The notes below the pieces were generated by a model. It did no database searches, had not been told where the DNA came from, and saw only the letters and a program-made list of their open reading frames with translations. Below, piece by piece: positions 1,812-32,047 of a stretch of DNA of 43,798 nucleotides (within the stretch, counting starts at the first letter, position 1; each line of letters starts with the position of its first letter). The position numbers were made by a program, and so were the translations under genes. This stretch comes from Acetofilamentum sp. (GTDB taxonomy: Bacteria > Hydrothermota > 32-111): contig DYMB01000002.1 in NCBI GenBank assembly GCA_020721805.1, positions 1-43,798 on the forward strand. The letters are read 5' to 3'.

Positions 1812-2761
1812 ACATAGATTACTCAAAAGAATTTGAATATCTGGTAAAAACCTATGAGAAAACGGGTGATGATGCTTCTCCTTTAATGGACAGTAAATAT
1901 GATAGTCTTGTAATAAATCAAGATAGAGTATTGGCAAAGAATGAGACAGAGGGAATTAAAATAGAAACAAAAAAGATTAAGGATGGAGTATCACTAAAGG
2001 TTTACATAAAAGAGGGAATCGTTAAACCCCTCCCTGTCCATCTTTGTTTCGGCATGCTTCCAAGAGAAGGAAAGCAAGTGATAAAATCAGAATTCTTTGT
2101 CGGAAAAAAATCAAAGGTAAAATTTATCTCCCACTGCTCTTTTCCAAATGCAAAACATATCATTCATATTATGGATAGCAAGGTTCACATAGAGGATGGT
2201 GCTGAAATGGAATATACAGAGACTCATTATCATTCCAAAGAAGGCGGTGTCGAAACATACCCAAAATTAAGAGGGAGAATAGAAAATGGCGGTAGATTGA
2301 AGGAGGAATTTAAACTTGTTGTTGGGCGGGTTGGTCTGTTAAAAATTGATTACGAAGTAGAACAGTTAAAGAAAAGTATATGTGAATTAGACACCAAGGT
2401 ATATGGGAAAGAGAATGATAGGATTGAGATAAGAGAAGCCCTTTTATTAAATGGTGAATACGCAAGCGGTTTAGCAAAGAGTAGGGTTGTCTTAAAGGAT
2501 AAGTCTTATGGAAATGTACTGGGAGAAGTGCAGGGAAATGCCCCATATACACGGGGGCATACAGATTGTCAGGAGATAGTTTATGGCGAAAATGCTGTTG
2601 CATATTCCACGCCGAACATCAGCGTAAAAAATTCACTTGCAAAAATCACACACGAAGCATCAATTGGAAGAATAGATAAAAAGGAAATGGAAACACTTAT
2701 GGCAAGAGGGTTGAATGAGGAAGAGGCTGTAGACTTGATTGTGAAGGGAATATTGAAATAA
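1808..2761 (+). CDS. sufB: SufB/SufD-family Fe-S assembly scaffold (short form)
   Basis: At 317 residues this is the short SufBD form, compared with about 495 for E. coli SufB. It contains the beta-helical core and the conserved C-terminal region. Diagnostic segments are GEVQGNAPYTRGHTDCQ, STPNISVKNSLAKITHEAS, IGRIDK, and a terminal MARGLNEEEAVDLIVKG helix. The cysteine in HTDCQ and the histidine in THEAS are the residues expected at the SufB-SufD cluster-binding interface. With only one SufBD gene present, a homodimeric scaffold with SufC is likely, as in archaeal SufBC. It overlaps sufC by 4 nt. The stop is followed immediately by the remnant of a methyltransferase gene, so the operon end appears to be a deletion junction. 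Confidence 0.9.
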   Translation: MNIDYSKEFEYLVKTYEKTGDDASPLMDSKYDSLVINQDRVLAKNETEGIKIETKKIKDGVSLKVYIKEGIVKPLPVHLCFGMLPREGKQVIKSEFFVGKKSKVKFISHCSFPNAKHIIHIMDSKVHIEDGAEMEYTETHYHSKEGGVETYPKLRGRIENGGRLKEEFKLVVGRVGLLKIDYEVEQLKKSICELDTKVYGKENDRIEIREALLLNGEYASGLAKSRVVLKDKSYGNVLGEVQGNAPYTRGHTDCQEIVYGENAVAYSTPNISVKNSLAKITHEASIGRIDKKEMETLMARGLNEEEAVDLIVKGILK

Positions 2762-2762
2762 T

Positions 2763-3671
2763 ATATATTATGGAAGGTATAAGGTCATTCCGATAAGAAC
2801 AGAGATAATCAAGTTCTGCAAAAATGCAGGTTTTGATTATATTGGTGCTATCATCTGGCAGAAAGTCAGCACATGTCATACAACCGGTGTGGCAACTGTG
2901 ATGGGCTCCTTTCCTTATCCAAGAAGTGGGATTATTAAAGTGGATTATGAATTTATATTAATATTAAAGAAATATGGCAATCCTCCAAAGGTTAACAAGG
3001 AAATAAAAGAAAAATCAAAATTGACTGATGAAGAATGGAACCAATATTTCACTGGGTATTGGAATTTTCCCGGCGAAAAACAGGATAAACTCCTTGCAAT
3101 GTTTCCTTAAGAATTGCCAAATCGACTTATTAAAATGTTCAGTTTTGTTGGGGATACTGTGCTTGACCCATTTCTTGGAAGAGGAACTACCTCTTTGGCG
3201 GCTAAGAATCTGAGTAGAAACTCAATGGGATATGAAATAAACGAGGATTTTTTACCTATCATAAAGGAAAAACTTGGACTAAAACAAAGTACTATTTTTC
3301 AAAATGTTAGACTTGAGGTAATCAAGCAGGTAGATATGTGAATAGACTTTAAAGAAGAGATTAAAAGATTGCCTTACATCTTCAAAGATACTTTAATATT
3401 TGATAAAAAAGTTGACCCTAAGAAATTAAGGTTTGGCTCTAAAATAGACAATTCTCATTCCGAAAGGGAAACATATTATACTGTTAAGGAAATAATCTCA
3501 CCAGAAATTTTGATTTTAGATAATGGATTGAAAATCAGGTTATTTGTTGTAAAAAAGAATCCAGAAAGGAATGGAGAGGCCATTCAATTTTTAAGAGAAA
3601 AAACCTGTGGACAAAAAGTATTCATAAAGTTCGATACTACAAAGTATGATGGGCAATGCTTAAATGATTAG
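2763..3671 (+). pseudogene. Truncated, broken DNA methyltransferase with SNase-like C-terminal region
   Basis: One continuous frame from 2763 encodes the C-terminal part of a beta-type N6/N4 DNA methyltransferase. Recognisable blocks are GFDYIGAIIWQKV, GSFPYPRSG, YEFILILKKYG, EEWNQYF, WNFPGEKQDK, LPNRLIKMFS and the AdoMet-binding DPFLGRGTTSLAAKNL. The frame is broken by TAA at 3108-3110 (FP*ELPNRL, apparently a lost Glu) and TGA at 3339-3341, and ends at TAG 3669-3671. Beyond the second stop the same frame continues with IRLFVVKKNPERNGEAIQF and GQKVFIKFD, which looks like the start of a staphylococcal-nuclease-like fold. The catalytic (D/S)PP(Y/W) motif should lie upstream and is missing, because the remnant starts 1 nt after the sufB stop. 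Fusion of the two parts in the intact ancestor is inferred from frame continuity. Confidence 0.75.
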
Positions 3672-26510: not shown

Positions 26511-27972
26511 ATGAAAAAAGTTATAATCATTGGTGGTGGTTTTGGTGGATTAACGGTTGCCTCATTTCTTGCAAAAGCAGGATATTCTGTAAAATTGTTT
26601 GAAAAAAATTCACAGATCGGAGGCAGGGCATCCACATATAATGTGGATGGTTTTCTTTTCGATAAGGGTCCATCCTGGTATTTGATGCCAGAAATCTTTG
26701 AAAGATATTTTAAAAAGATGGATAGGAATTTATCCGATTATTATAAACTCGAGAGATTGAATCCTAATTATAGATTATTTTTTGAGGATGGTGATATTGT
26801 TGACATCCCGTCTGAAATCGAAGGGATATATAATGTGTTTGAAAAAATTGAAAAGGGTAGTACTAAAAAACTTGATGAATACTTAAAGAATGCAGCCTAT
26901 CAGGATAATCTTATAGAACCGATTCTGTATAAAAGTTATGATTCCCCAAAAATCTTGTGGATATAAATCTAATCATTTAGGGGCTGAAAAATTTTAACTA
27001 TATGGATGATTATGTGAAAAAATATTTTAAAGATCAAAAATTGAGGCAGATAATAGAATATACAACAGTTTTTCTCGGTTCATCCCCTTACAACACGCCA
27101 GCTTTTTATTCGATAATGAGCCATGTTGATTTTAACCTTGTGGTCTATTATCCACAGGGAGGTTTTTCAAAGATAGCCGATGCTTATGAAAAAATTGCCA
27201 AAGAGTAGGTTGTGAAGTTCAAAAAGAGAATCCTGTGATTAAAATAGTTGCAAAGAATGGTAAGGCGATAGCAGTCAAAACCAAAAATGGGTCATACGAT
27301 TGTGATATTCTGACCTCTAACGCTGATGAATATTATACTGAAATGGAACTTCTTGATGAAGATTACAGAAGTTATGATAACATTTCCCGGGAAAAAAAGA
27401 TAATGAGTCCATCTTCATTCTTATTGTTTTTAGGGGTTGATGAAAAAATAAGAGACTTGAAACATCATAATCTTTACCTTGCAAAAGATTGGAAAAAACA
27501 TTTTGATTCAATTTTTAAACAAAAAATTATGCCTGAGAATCCTTCATTCTATATTTCGGTAACATCAAAAACTGATAAAGAAAGAGCGCCAGAAGGAAAA
27601 GAGAACCTTTTTGTTCTCGTTCCTATTGCCTCGGGAATTGAAGATAATGAAAAAATAAGAAAAATCTTCTTTGATCTGATCGTTGAAAAGATTTCAAAAC
27701 TTACCAATTTCGATTTAAAAAATAAAATTATCTTTACAAGAACATATTCTATAAACGATTTTATTTCTGATTATAATTCTTATTTTGGAACAGCACTCGG
27801 TCTTTCACATGCTAATTTCCAAACAGCGTTGTTCAAATTACCTTTTAAAAGTAAAAAATTAAAAAATCTTTATTATGTCGGTCATTACACACATCCTGGA
27901 ATAGGTGTGCCAATGGTTACAATAGCAGGGGAAATAGTATCGAGGATAGTTACAGATGTTCATAAAAGATAA
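26511..27972 (+). pseudogene. crtI: Broken phytoene desaturase (CrtI family)
   Basis: Three consecutive pieces together make one CrtI-type FAD enzyme that would dehydrogenate phytoene. Piece one (26511-26966) has the dinucleotide-binding IIGGGFGGLTVASFLAKAG and GGRASTY. Piece two (27002-27208) has MDDYVKKYF, SSPYNTPAFYSIMSHVDF and YYPQGGFSKIADAYEKIA. Piece three (27235-27972) has SNADEYYTE and the C-terminal YYVGHYTHPGIGVPMV motif. Between one and two, a missing base in the A-run near 26948-26952 shifts the frame; restoring it reads LVDINLII then TAG (26978-26980). Between two and three, another single-base loss near 27206 shifts frame; restoring it reads GCEVQKENPVIK. That makes two frameshifts and one stop. 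The neighbouring crtB overlaps its end by 17 nt and is intact. Confidence 0.85.
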
Positions 27973-28789
27973 TATCATTTATGATACCTTCAAAAAAGGG
28001 TCAAAAACATATTTTTATTCAAGTCTATTCTTTCCTATAGCGGTAAGAAGCAGGGTCTTTGTTCTTTACGCCTTTGTTAGAAAAGCGGATAATTTCGTCG
28101 ATTCGATCCCTCAGAATGTTACAGGTTTTTATAAATTTAAAAAAGATTATTATGATGCTCTCAAAACGGGGAAAGCGAATGATATAGTGGTTGATTCTTT
28201 TGTTGAATTAAAAAATGAGTTAACGATTAAAGATGAATGGATTGATGCTTTTTTTAAATCTATGGAGATGGATTTAGAAAAAAAGGTTTACAAAGATCTT
28301 GATGAAACCATAGAATACATATATGGATCCGCTGAGGTCATTGGTATGATGATGTGTAGAATAATGGGAATAGATCCAAAAGGATATTATTATGCAAAAA
28401 ATCTTGGGAAAGCGATGCAGTACATCAATTTCATAAGGGATATAAAAGATGATAATCTTCTTGGAAGGATATATCTCCCTGTAAATATTTTAAAAAAATA
28501 TGGACTTGATTCACTTGATTTTAACGAAGTCAAAGAAAATGAAAAAGGATTCAAAGATTTTTTGAGAGATGAACTCAAAAGATATTTTAACTGGCAGGCT
28601 CTTGCTGAAAAAGGATACAGATATATCCCTAAATATCTTCTTGTTCCAGTTAAAACCGCATCCGATATGTATAAATACACAGCTAAAAGAATATTTGATG
28701 ATCCGCTGATCGTTTACAAAATCAAAGTTAAGCCAAGGATAAGAAGGATAATCTATACGAGTTTGAAAAATTTTGCTGATACTTTTTAA
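27956..28789 (+). CDS. crtB: Phytoene/squalene synthase family
   Basis: This 277-residue enzyme condenses two prenyl diphosphates head to head, giving phytoene (from GGPP) or a C30 analogue. Both aspartate-rich motifs are intact: DNFVD in RKADNFVDSIP, and DIKDD in NFIRDIKDDNLLGRIYLP. The latter block is highly diagnostic. It lies between crtI and a lycopene cyclase, so phytoene is the expected product. No inactivating change is visible, although the preceding desaturase is broken. Confidence 0.9.
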   Translation: MFIKDNIIYDTFKKGSKTYFYSSLFFPIAVRSRVFVLYAFVRKADNFVDSIPQNVTGFYKFKKDYYDALKTGKANDIVVDSFVELKNELTIKDEWIDAFFKSMEMDLEKKVYKDLDETIEYIYGSAEVIGMMMCRIMGIDPKGYYYAKNLGKAMQYINFIRDIKDDNLLGRIYLPVNILKKYGLDSLDFNEVKENEKGFKDFLRDELKRYFNWQALAEKGYRYIPKYLLVPVKTASDMYKYTAKRIFDDPLIVYKIKVKPRIRRIIYTSLKNFADTF

Positions 28790-28822
28790 ATTGAAAAAAG
28801 ATTTAAATTTTAAGGTTGTTTA

Positions 28823-29503
28823 ATGAGTAAATATTTGATGATAAACCTTGTCATAGTGAGTTTCCCTCTCATATTTTCTATCATTCTTTATAGGTACACT
28901 TTACAAAAGTTATCTTCATTTTTTTTATCTTTCATTGTTGTAGGAATACCTTTTATAATATGGGATGTTTTTGCTACGGGCAGGGGAGATTGGAGTTTCA
29001 ACCCATCCTATGTCAATGGTGTAAAATTTTTCGGGCTTCCCTATGAGGAAATATTATTTTTTGTAACGGTTCCATTTGCCTCTCTTTTTCTTTTTGAATC
29101 ACTAAGATATTTTGTCTTCGATACCTATATTTCAAATCGTTATAGAATTGTTTTTCTCATTCTTTCACCGCTATTCTTTTTCTCAGGATTATATTTTATT
29201 TTTACACCATACACTTCAACTGTCCTTTTAGTTACCAGTTTTACCTGTCTGATGCTCTATTTATGTTTTAATTTTTTACTGAAAAGTATACATTTTTATC
29301 TATACCTTTTTTTAACGATGTTATTCTTTCTAATTTTCAACTCTCTTCTTACAGGTATACCTGTTCTTTTATATTCGAAAAATTCCATATTGAACATAAG
29401 ATTTGGAACCATTCCTGTTGAAGATTTTTTTTACAATTTTTCATTGCTCGTTTTATATCTTGGCGTATATGAATTGATAAACAGGAAAAATTTAAAGAAA
29501 TAG
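28823..29503 (+). CDS. Fused lycopene cyclase (CrtYc-CrtYd type)
   Basis: This 226-residue membrane protein has about seven helices. Two tandem repeats of the carotenoid-cyclase domain can be seen. The first carries IIWDVFATGRGDWSFNP and LPYEEILFFVTVP (PxEE..FF); the second carries TGIPVLLY and TIPVEDFFYNFSL (PxED..F). This CrtYcd fusion is found in archaea, myxobacteria and fungi and cyclises lycopene ends to beta-ionone rings. AAGG precedes the ATG. Its 3' end overlaps the convergent agmatinase gene by 12 nt. Confidence 0.85.
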   Translation: MSKYLMINLVIVSFPLIFSIILYRYTLQKLSSFFLSFIVVGIPFIIWDVFATGRGDWSFNPSYVNGVKFFGLPYEEILFFVTVPFASLFLFESLRYFVFDTYISNRYRIVFLILSPLFFFSGLYFIFTPYTSTVLLVTSFTCLMLYLCFNFLLKSIHFYLYLFLTMLFFLIFNSLLTGIPVLLYSKNSILNIRFGTIPVEDFFYNFSLLVLYLGVYELINRKNLKK

Positions 29504-30316
29504 AATGATTTCCCTTACAAGTTTTGCTGCTGCTGCTGCTGATATTCCAGAAGGATCGTGATCGGGTGATAGTTCTACGACATCAACTCCCACTATATCG
29601 AATGTTTTAAATTTCAAAAGAAAATGAATAAATTCTTTGAAAGTGAATCCTCCAGCCTCCGGAGTGCCTGTACCAGGAATATTGGAAGGATCAAGAAGAT
29701 CAAGGTCTATTGAAATATATATTTTTTTTGACTTTATAAGATCAAAGTTGAAAGATTCCAGATCCTCTGAAAAATACAAAAGATTTTTTGAGAATTCATA
29801 TTCCTCTGATGTGAAGGATCTTATTCCAAGTTGGCATATTCTTTTTGTGCCAATGATTTCAGCACAGTTCCTTATAACACAGGCATGTGAAAATTTAACT
29901 CCCATATAATCTTTTCTTAAATCGGCATGTGCATCAAAAACTATTAAAATAAAATCATCATAAAACTGGTTGAACGCTTTTATTATTGGATATGTTATAG
30001 AATGTTCTCCACCGAGCGAAATTATTTTCTTTTTATTTTTTAAAAGTTTTTTTGTATTCTCATATATTATTTTGTTGGTTCTTTTTATATCTCCATAAGG
30101 TAGTTCAACATCACCCATATCAAAATAATTTTTTGTGTGAATATCCTCCTTTTGATAGTTGGAGAATGTTTCCAGATTCCAGGAGAATAATCTCAAAGCC
30201 ATCGGTCCATTTCTCGAACCGGATCTGAATGAAGATGTTGAATCATAAGGATATCCAACGATAACTATTTCTGAATTTTTTTTGTCGGTGGAAGATTCAA
30301 GGAAATTATATACCAT
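29492..30316 (-). CDS. speB: Agmatinase
   Basis: This 274-residue ureohydrolase converts agmatine to putrescine and urea. The binuclear Mn site residues are present in order: GGEHSIT (His), VFDAHADLR (Asp, His, Asp) and SIDLDLLDPSNIPGTGTPE (Asp, Asp). Arginase-type alternatives are less likely given that arginine decarboxylase is in the same operon. It is the last gene of the polyamine operon, overlapping speE by 11 nt. Confidence 0.92.
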   Translation of the reverse strand: MVYNFLESSTDKKNSEIVIVGYPYDSTSSFRSGSRNGPMALRLFSWNLETFSNYQKEDIHTKNYFDMGDVELPYGDIKRTNKIIYENTKKLLKNKKKIISLGGEHSITYPIIKAFNQFYDDFILIVFDAHADLRKDYMGVKFSHACVIRNCAEIIGTKRICQLGIRSFTSEEYEFSKNLLYFSEDLESFNFDLIKSKKIYISIDLDLLDPSNIPGTGTPEAGGFTFKEFIHFLLKFKTFDIVGVDVVELSPDHDPSGISAAAAAKLVREIILFL

Positions 30317-31172
30317 ACATCTTTTTTACAAAATTTGGTAGTGAAAATGAGCCTGTGTGTATCTGATGGTTATAATACTTCAAAACATTTTGAAAACTTT
30401 TTATAAGATTTTTATTTTTTACATCAAGTGAGGTTTCTTCTTTCAAACATAGAAAGAAATTCCACATACCAGAAGGATATGTTGGAATGAAAGCGAGATA
30501 AGGTTTTACATTCAAAAAAACTTTTTTAAGCCTATTGTATATCGTTTTAACCGAGTCTTTGTAGAAATAGGGCGATTCAGCTTGTAGTGTTAAAATTCCA
30601 TTTTCATTTAAAATTTCATAGCATTTCCTGTAAAATTTTTCTGTAAACAATCCCTCGCCTGGGCCTATGGGGTCGGATGAATCTATTATTATCAGATCAA
30701 ATATCTCTTTTGTCTTAAAAACAAAATCGATACCATCACCAACAATTATTTTATAATTTTTCGAAAAAGTTTTTGTTAAATTTGGGAAAAATTTTTTTGA
30801 GGAAGTGATAACATCTTTGTCGATCTCAACCATTTTTATATTTTTTATATGTTTATACCTTGAAACCTCTCTTAGAGTGCCACAATCTCCGCCACCTATG
30901 ATCAGAACATTTTCAATCTTTGGGTTAATATTTATGGGAACATGTGTTATCATCTCGTGATATACAAACTCATCTCTATCCGTGAGCATAACAAGTCCAT
31001 CGAGCAACATCACTTTACCGAACTCGTAGGTATCGATTATAACCAGATCCTGATATTTGGTTTTTTTTCGATAAAGTGTTTCTTTAACTTTAAAGGTTAT
31101 TCCGCTGTTGGGTGTATGATATTCTGTAAACCAGAGTTGTGTTTGACCAGAATTGTTAAACTCTTTCATCAT
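30306..31172 (-). CDS. speE: Spermidine synthase (polyamine aminopropyltransferase)
   Basis: This enzyme of about 288 residues transfers an aminopropyl group from decarboxylated AdoMet to putrescine, or possibly to agmatine. LLDGLVMLTDRDEFVYHEM, IGGGDCGTLREV and IIDSSDPIGPGEGLF mark the polyamine- and dcAdoMet-binding sites; the catalytic aspartate is in DSSDPIGP. I chose the ATG at 31172, which overlaps the stop of the arginine decarboxylase gene by one base (TGATG). An ATG three codons upstream and one immediately after are alternatives. The acceptor (putrescine or agmatine) cannot be told from motifs alone. Confidence 0.92.
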   Translation of the reverse strand: MMKEFNNSGQTQLWFTEYHTPNSGITFKVKETLYRKKTKYQDLVIIDTYEFGKVMLLDGLVMLTDRDEFVYHEMITHVPININPKIENVLIIGGGDCGTLREVSRYKHIKNIKMVEIDKDVITSSKKFFPNLTKTFSKNYKIIVGDGIDFVFKTKEIFDLIIIDSSDPIGPGEGLFTEKFYRKCYEILNENGILTLQAESPYFYKDSVKTIYNRLKKVFLNVKPYLAFIPTYPSGMWNFFLCLKEETSLDVKNKNLIKSFQNVLKYYNHQIHTGSFSLPNFVKKMYGI

Positions 31173-31639
31173 CACTCCCATAAAACAACGGCTGCGAAAG
31201 CTGTTCCTATTCTTTTGACACGATGTTCACAAGATTTGCTTAAAATGTTATAACTTGTTATGTTTCTGACTCTCATCGCTTCTTCAGCCATGCTTCTCAC
31301 TATTTCCTCTATCTCTTTTTTCCTTCCGTTGGAAGAATATTCCATAATTACACCGGGCAAAGAATCATCGGTTGGTTTTGCCGCTGCAACTCCAGCGGAT
31401 ATATATTGACCTGTCATATCTGATGTTATGGATGCGTATGCAACCGGAATGAAACTTCCTTGTGGAATTTTAATGAATTTTACAGGATGACAGAATGGGG
31501 GAATTATAGAGGAAATTTTTATCAGATTCATATTTCCTATTTTTGCGTTCAAAAGAGCACAATCGAAAGAATTCAATTTTGAAAATCCTTCAGAATTCCC
31601 TGAAACGATGAAGAATCTTTTGGGGTTGACAAAATTCAT
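31172..31639 (-). CDS. Pyruvoyl-dependent arginine decarboxylase
   Basis: This 155-residue enzyme turns arginine into agmatine using a self-generated pyruvoyl group. Sequence and order match the archaeal PvlArgDC: VSGNSEG, LNAKIGNMNLIKISSIIPP, GSFIPVAYA, IMEYSSNG and the final IGTAFAAVVLWE. Self-cleavage is expected between Ser43 and Ser44 in KISSIIPP, the position corresponding to Ser52/Ser53 of the Methanocaldococcus enzyme. The start codon directly follows the speD stop; the stop overlaps speE. Confidence 0.92.
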   Translation of the reverse strand: MNFVNPKRFFIVSGNSEGFSKLNSFDCALLNAKIGNMNLIKISSIIPPFCHPVKFIKIPQGSFIPVAYASITSDMTGQYISAGVAAAKPTDDSLPGVIMEYSSNGRKKEIEEIVRSMAEEAMRVRNITSYNILSKSCEHRVKRIGTAFAAVVLWE

Positions 31640-32047
31640 TTAAACTCCTATTGTTTCAGATGTTTTTTGGTCAGTTTTATGTTTCAAAACACCATCCACA
31701 TCAAAAAGTCCTCTTTTTACTTCCATCATGGAAGTATCTTTCGCTTTTAATTTTTTTACAAGGTATTTGAATGAAATCCAGGGATCGAGAGTGTTCCCAC
31801 ATGTGTAAATATCAATGGATGCGTATCCGTATTCAGGCCATGTGTGGATTGAAAGATGGGATTCTGCGATTACGACTACTCCGCTAACTCCAAAAGGTGA
31901 AAAGTGATGAAAAGAACTTGAAATCACTGTTGCTCTTGCTCTTTTTGCTGCTTCAACCATCAGTTGTTCTATAAGAGCAACATCGTTAAGAATAGCTGAG
32001 TCACATTTATAGAACTCAGCAAGAATGTGTTTACCTAAGGCTTGCAT
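31640..32047 (-). CDS. speD: S-adenosylmethionine decarboxylase proenzyme
   Basis: This 135-residue bacterial/archaeal-type SpeD makes decarboxylated AdoMet for spermidine synthesis. Self-processing is expected between Glu62 and Ser63 in ESHLSIHTWPE; His68 and Cys83 (YTCGN) are the known helper residues, at the same numbers as in Thermotoga SpeD. GGAGG lies 9 nt before the ATG. It leads the operon speD-PvlArgDC-speE-speB, which would supply every step from arginine plus AdoMet to spermidine. Confidence 0.95.
   Translation of the reverse strand: MQALGKHILAEFYKCDSAILNDVALIEQLMVEAAKRARATVISSSFHHFSPFGVSGVVVIAESHLSIHTWPEYGYASIDIYTCGNTLDPWISFKYLVKKLKAKDTSMMEVKRGLFDVDGVLKHKTDQKTSETIGV

Follow-up and report, generated by a model that had tools for sequence, protein, structure and literature searches.

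A probable recent crtI pseudogene beside an intact crtB in a carotenoid gene cluster of Acetofilamentum sp.

We analysed a window of 43,798 nt, the whole stretch of DNA presented here, from the genome of Acetofilamentum sp. (G000; 1.70 Mb, 74 contigs, 99.8% complete). Its phytoene desaturase gene, crtI (26511-27972, forward strand), is spread over three reading frames, changing frame near 26950 and again near 27206. The first piece (26511-~26950) is the FAD-binding N-terminal part and matches NF058655 (E=1.3e-55) and positions 1-141 of the TIGR02734 profile (E=2.7e-39). The second piece (26951-27205), in another frame of the same strand, matches profile positions 146-237 (E=1.9e-19) and carries an in-frame TAG, read in the sequence at 26978-26980, while the third (27208-27972), in the third forward frame, matches positions 233-490 (E=4.2e-54) and could start no earlier than a GTG at 27235. 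An earlier note on this DNA had reported two frameshifts and a TAG in a gene that still reads as one CrtI; all three lesions lie where they had been placed, and the pieces cover the desaturase profile in order, the middle piece filling the gap, such that correcting the frames (start 26511) yields one continuous phytoene desaturase with 487 positions. Judged from the sequence, such consecutive matches to a single profile are not due to chance. Translation from the crtI start gives 151 residues and ends at a stop at 26966, the frame of the first piece overrunning the break near 26950, so that crtI is predicted to yield no full desaturase. At 135.2 and 184.1 bits, the two outer pieces stay below the curated CrtI cut-off of 238.1. 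A two-residue gap just past the TAG, considered as a further lesion, was dropped since the same short form is found in 2 of 7 named relatives among the matches listed.

The next gene, crtB (27956-28789, forward strand), overlaps the end of crtI and encodes a protein of the phytoene/squalene synthase family (PF00494, 160.7 bits against a cut-off of 26), in which both Asp-rich motifs line up with those of CrtM and phytoene synthase of solved structure. Its scores fall below the curated CrtB equivalog cut-offs (97.4 against 500, 80.9 against 480 and 73.4 against 550 bits) and also below those for HpnD (120.7 against 278.6) and HpnC (79 against 250.45); because all curated equivalog cut-offs are missed, the exact product is not fixed by sequence. 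The lycopene cyclase gene crtYcd (28823-29503, forward strand) has its two cyclase domains in a single open frame (TIGR03462, 85.5 bits in two stretches against a cut-off of 39.4; PF18916, 84.4 bits). With both frames open, crtB and the fused CrtYcd are undamaged, as originally described. On the right, the cluster is flanked by a convergent gene (29492-30316, reverse strand) that we take to be speB, of the agmatinase family, and then by three more polyamine genes (30306-32047, reverse strand), presumably speE, arginine decarboxylase and speD. A polyprenyl synthase of unspecified chain length (PF00348) is present in 8 of 8 genomes, and the window also contains a ferredoxin oxidoreductase gene and an acetokinase-family gene. 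Hopanoid use of the CrtB product was considered and found unsupported, with squalene-hopene cyclase in 0 of 8 genomes and controls positive in 2. A search for rhodopsin gave 0 matches in 8 genomes, with the control genomes silent too.

We compared the cluster with relatives in the same family (f1, which includes G000-G004, with G001 from the genus of G000) and in another family of the same phylum (f10). In G004 crtI, crtB and crtYcd are all unsplit, crtI encoding 489 aa that are 55% identical, and crtI is also unsplit in three f10 genomes (G113, G116 and G118), at 53-55% identity to G004. These four genomes have an open frame of about 490 aa where G000 has three frames and a TAG, which contradicts the possibility, raised in the earlier note, that the crtI family is naturally split here. 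Nor is the split conserved: the crtI of G003 is broken in another way, with approximately residues 38-118 missing, three frame changes plus stops, and the FAD-motif glycine lost. The G003 crtYcd is frame-shifted, and its crtB, of 275 aa, is intact. By its predicted product, crtB stays intact in both decaying lineages, G000 and G003. We detected no match to crtI, crtB, crtYcd or speB in G001 or G002. The block crtI-crtB-crtYcd-speB (window 26511-30316) goes unmatched in these two genomes, as if it had been lost or never gained. In G000, G003 and G004 the crt cluster adjoins the same polyamine genes, with speB at the right flank and the order of the three following genes kept in G003 and G004, and the crtI copies of these three f1 genomes group in a single clade (SH-aLRT 99 in a quick tree of 35 rows). 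Given this shared flank and single clade, one ancestral cluster followed by separate losses is the simplest reading. The proposal that pigment synthesis is being lost is supported by a broken crtI in G000, broken crtI and crtYcd in G003, and no crt genes found in G001 and G002.

Carotenoid genes are sparse in this phylum. A CrtI match at E 1e-15 or better was found in 8 of 147 genomes of the phylum and lycopene cyclase domains in 3 of 60, own genome included in both counts; PF00494 was found in 6 of 60, namely G000, G003 and G004 plus weaker matches in G014, G023 and G042. The named relatives (45 loci) are mostly Bacteroidota, at 37-42% identity, with one partial sequence at 51%; 43 of them entered the CrtI conservation count (leaving out L066, with no qualifying frame, and L076, partial), 42 the CrtB count and 24 the tree. 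The f10 clusters share the order crtI-crtB-crtYcd with G000 but have a small gene between crtB and crtYcd, and they additionally hold a second desaturase as well as one more small gene (with a PF04240 match in G116), both of which are absent from the G000 cluster. The small gene between crtB and crtYcd (L099 8285-8851, L161 6923-7507) is present in G004, G113, G116 and G118, is shorter in G003 (142 aa), and is not at this place in G000. The G004 copy has no Pfam match, and the gene is possibly an unrecognised carotenoid-pathway partner.

Since the f10 clusters hold a second CrtI-like gene, a different desaturase elsewhere in G000 might replace CrtI and supply lycopene, as the earlier note had also suggested. 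None was found in the 99.8% complete genome by three CrtI-type searches: those with the CrtI protein and TIGR02734 otherwise gave only short FAD-binding stretches, and PF01593 gave one match but overlooked the third crtI piece, so that its sensitivity is incomplete. We consider such a replacement very improbable. Placed end to end, the pieces of crtI can still be aligned with CrtI, and a working enzyme could in principle arise by frameshifting and read-through of the TAG. This would require two shifts plus one read-through in a gene that is a plain ORF in G004, G113, G116 and G118. Moreover, TAG ends 21 of 141 ORFs of at least 200 aa in the sampled G000 sequence and is therefore an ordinary stop in this genome, and same-frame coding continuation was observed past 0 of the 3 TAG stops retained after filtering. 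Recoding is scarcely credible as an explanation. Given its disabling lesions, the intact copies in relatives and the lack of any second copy in these searches, the G000 crtI is most likely a pseudogene, predicted to be non-functional in converting phytoene to lycopene.

We assayed the state of the three genes by their rates of protein change. Because synonymous change was saturated, a codon-model dN/dS analysis of G000, G003 and G004 gave no usable omega, and we relied on protein branch lengths and site counts. On a fixed tree with the f10 outgroup and 60 bootstraps each, the G003/G004 branch ratio was 2.13 (1.30-4.10) for crtI, 3.75 (2.26-11.57) for crtYcd and 0.54 (0.25-1.01) for crtB, from which crtI and crtYcd, and not crtB, are decaying in G003. 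With no outgroup, a three-taxon branch test yielded weaker contrasts (crtI versus crtB, P=0.12; crtI versus polyamine genes, P=0.03; crtYcd versus crtB, P=0.0045) and gave no excess for G000 crtI relative to the polyamine genes (b0/b4 3.19 versus 3.94). Loss starting with the desaturase, also proposed previously, is not established as a general rule, given that the acceleration in G003 is higher for crtYcd than for crtI, with overlapping intervals, and that none of the three genes was found in G001 and G002.

For G000, we counted G000-only against G004-only changes at sites fixed in the outgroup, which was G113, G116 and G118 for the crt genes, G005 and G006 for speB, G005-G007 for polyprenyl synthase and prfA, and G002 for priA. 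The counts were 56:19 for crtI (330 sites), 14:19 for crtB (175 sites) and 15:6 for crtYcd (126 sites). Four household genes (speB, 10:14; polyprenyl synthase, 6:5; prfA, 17:18; priA, 77:77) pooled to 110:114; prfA with G002 as the outgroup gave 23:37 and was left out of the pool. Against the pooled value, crtI is elevated (P=0.00015), with P=0.067 for crtYcd and P=0.58 for crtB. At the 95 crtI positions that do not vary in f10 and are conserved in 95% or more of the 43 named relatives there is no excess (10:8); the excess lies at sites of lower conservation (14:3 and 32:8), and G000 departs from conserved crtI positions about as often as the intact G004 (43/130 versus 45/130). A gene long dead would be expected to have such an excess at the deeply conserved sites, and as none is seen, the crtI core appears to have been kept until recently and the break to be young. 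For the same reason, only G003 allows the constraint on crtB after a break in crtI to be judged. We suggest that G000 crtI evolved somewhat faster and was probably working until recently; the excess, which presupposes a single clade of f1 copies, could predate the break.

These counts also bear on whether the three lesions are artefacts of assembly or sequencing and crtI is intact in the strain. We scanned coding frames in 228,071 bases of G000, 10,616 of which are N (about 217 kb unmasked), and obtained 201 coding segments with 18 neighbouring pairs lacking a nearby ATG. A nearby GTG or TTG is present in 12 of the 18 pairs, only some of which were inspected; the other 6, without any nearby start, were classed by eye as three ordinary genes, two A-run cases and one methylase remnant. 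The scan called both halves in 123 of 141 simulated one-base deletions, and crtI itself is absent from its list, the score of the middle piece being too low. The first crtI break does fall at an A-run, and the two other A-run cases in ~217 kb of unmasked sequence suggest A-run length errors or slips in the G000 assembly; the lack of excess change at the most conserved crtI positions (10:8) would also fit an intact gene. However, crtI combines a substitution-type stop with two frame changes within ~260 bases, and three lesions over that distance exceed the frame-scan background, the rest of the sample holding three start-less cases that are abnormal by eye and 12 GTG/TTG pairs that were partly inspected. 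The raised crtI rate in the G000 lineage (56:19 versus 110:114) and the independent, gross decay of crtI in G003 likewise argue against an artefact. Assembly error, which the earlier note thought possible for the A-run, is unlikely as the overall explanation.

Other apparently disrupted genes were noted. A DNA methylase remnant at window positions 2760-3670, with a PF01555 piece at 3111-3338 (E=4e-17), is interrupted by TAA at 3108-3110 and TGA at 3339-3341, the same-frame stretch beyond having no Pfam match, and is an apparent second pseudogene of the window. At ~15900-16150 of L107 (reverse strand) a gene without a start codon, which by motif and by eye we take to resemble GGGP/heptaprenylglyceryl phosphate synthase, has a frame change at a long A-run (assembly or slippage). 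At ~480-680 of L115, a frame that by eye is histidine-kinase-like stops at an A-rich run, beyond which a receiver-like frame with no start codon carries on, possibly a broken hybrid kinase.

Collectively, the data make it probable that crtI is a real, recent pseudogene in a crtI-crtB-crtYcd cluster that was inherited within the family and is being lost piecemeal. With CrtI broken, the carotenoid pathway can go no further than phytoene. CrtB is not known to need an electron acceptor. The G000 crtB, still predicted to encode a complete synthase, would together with the polyprenyl synthase allow the cell at most to make colourless phytoene, and crtYcd would be left without lycopene to cyclise. 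G000 is probably an anaerobic fermenter, as suggested by a few genes (ferredoxin oxidoreductase, acetokinase family). The Pantoea CrtI requires oxygen, for which quinones can substitute, as its terminal electron acceptor, and under nitrogen it was fully inactive in dehydrogenation (PMC3382138). Given this need for oxygen or a quinone, anaerobes may stop at colourless phytoene: a shortage of electron acceptors would devalue the CrtI step first and spare CrtB, and in a fermenter with ferredoxin-linked oxidoreductases desaturation may have been the first step to become useless. A more speculative and rather doubtful extension is that phytoene synthase has been kept by selection after the loss of desaturation, independently in G000 and G003, with phytoene or another head-to-head prenyl product being the useful end point of the pathway, perhaps as a lipid in the membrane of an anaerobe. 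This reading of phytoene as a product rests on the rate contrast in G003 and on two genomes, both of which plain order of loss explains too.

Loss of the pathway is itself a known kind of event; what is new here is the longer survival of crtB than of crtI in two lineages. Carotenoid genes have been differentially lost in bacteria, a patchy distribution of the pathway being explained by loss within lineages (Klassen 2010, PMC2889829). The present case is alike in that lineage loss explains a patchy pathway, and differs in that intermediate stages are visible, G000 having a broken crtI beside an intact crtB and an open crtYcd, and G003 adding a stage in which crtI and crtYcd are broken and crtB is intact. 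Among the literature matches listed, as far as their excerpts go, there was no report of crtB retained beside a broken crtI. Carotenoid genes in an anaerobe, as G000 would be judging from its genes, have a counterpart in the obligate anaerobe Eubacterium limosum, which keeps C30 carotenoid genes and showed no carotenoid in strictly anaerobic culture; its crtM and crtN are still functional on expression in E. coli grown aerobically (PMC11611032). In contrast to those functional C30 genes, the G000 desaturase is broken and its cluster includes a lycopene cyclase (C40 type).

Within this family a pigment pathway appears to have been caught in the middle of its loss, with stages running from an intact cluster in G004 through a broken crtI in G000 and crtB as the only intact gene in G003 to no crt genes found in G001 and G002. 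If crtB is indeed selected on its own, this would suggest that colourless phytoene has a so far unrecognised role in anaerobes, and crtB alone should then not be relied on to predict pigment.
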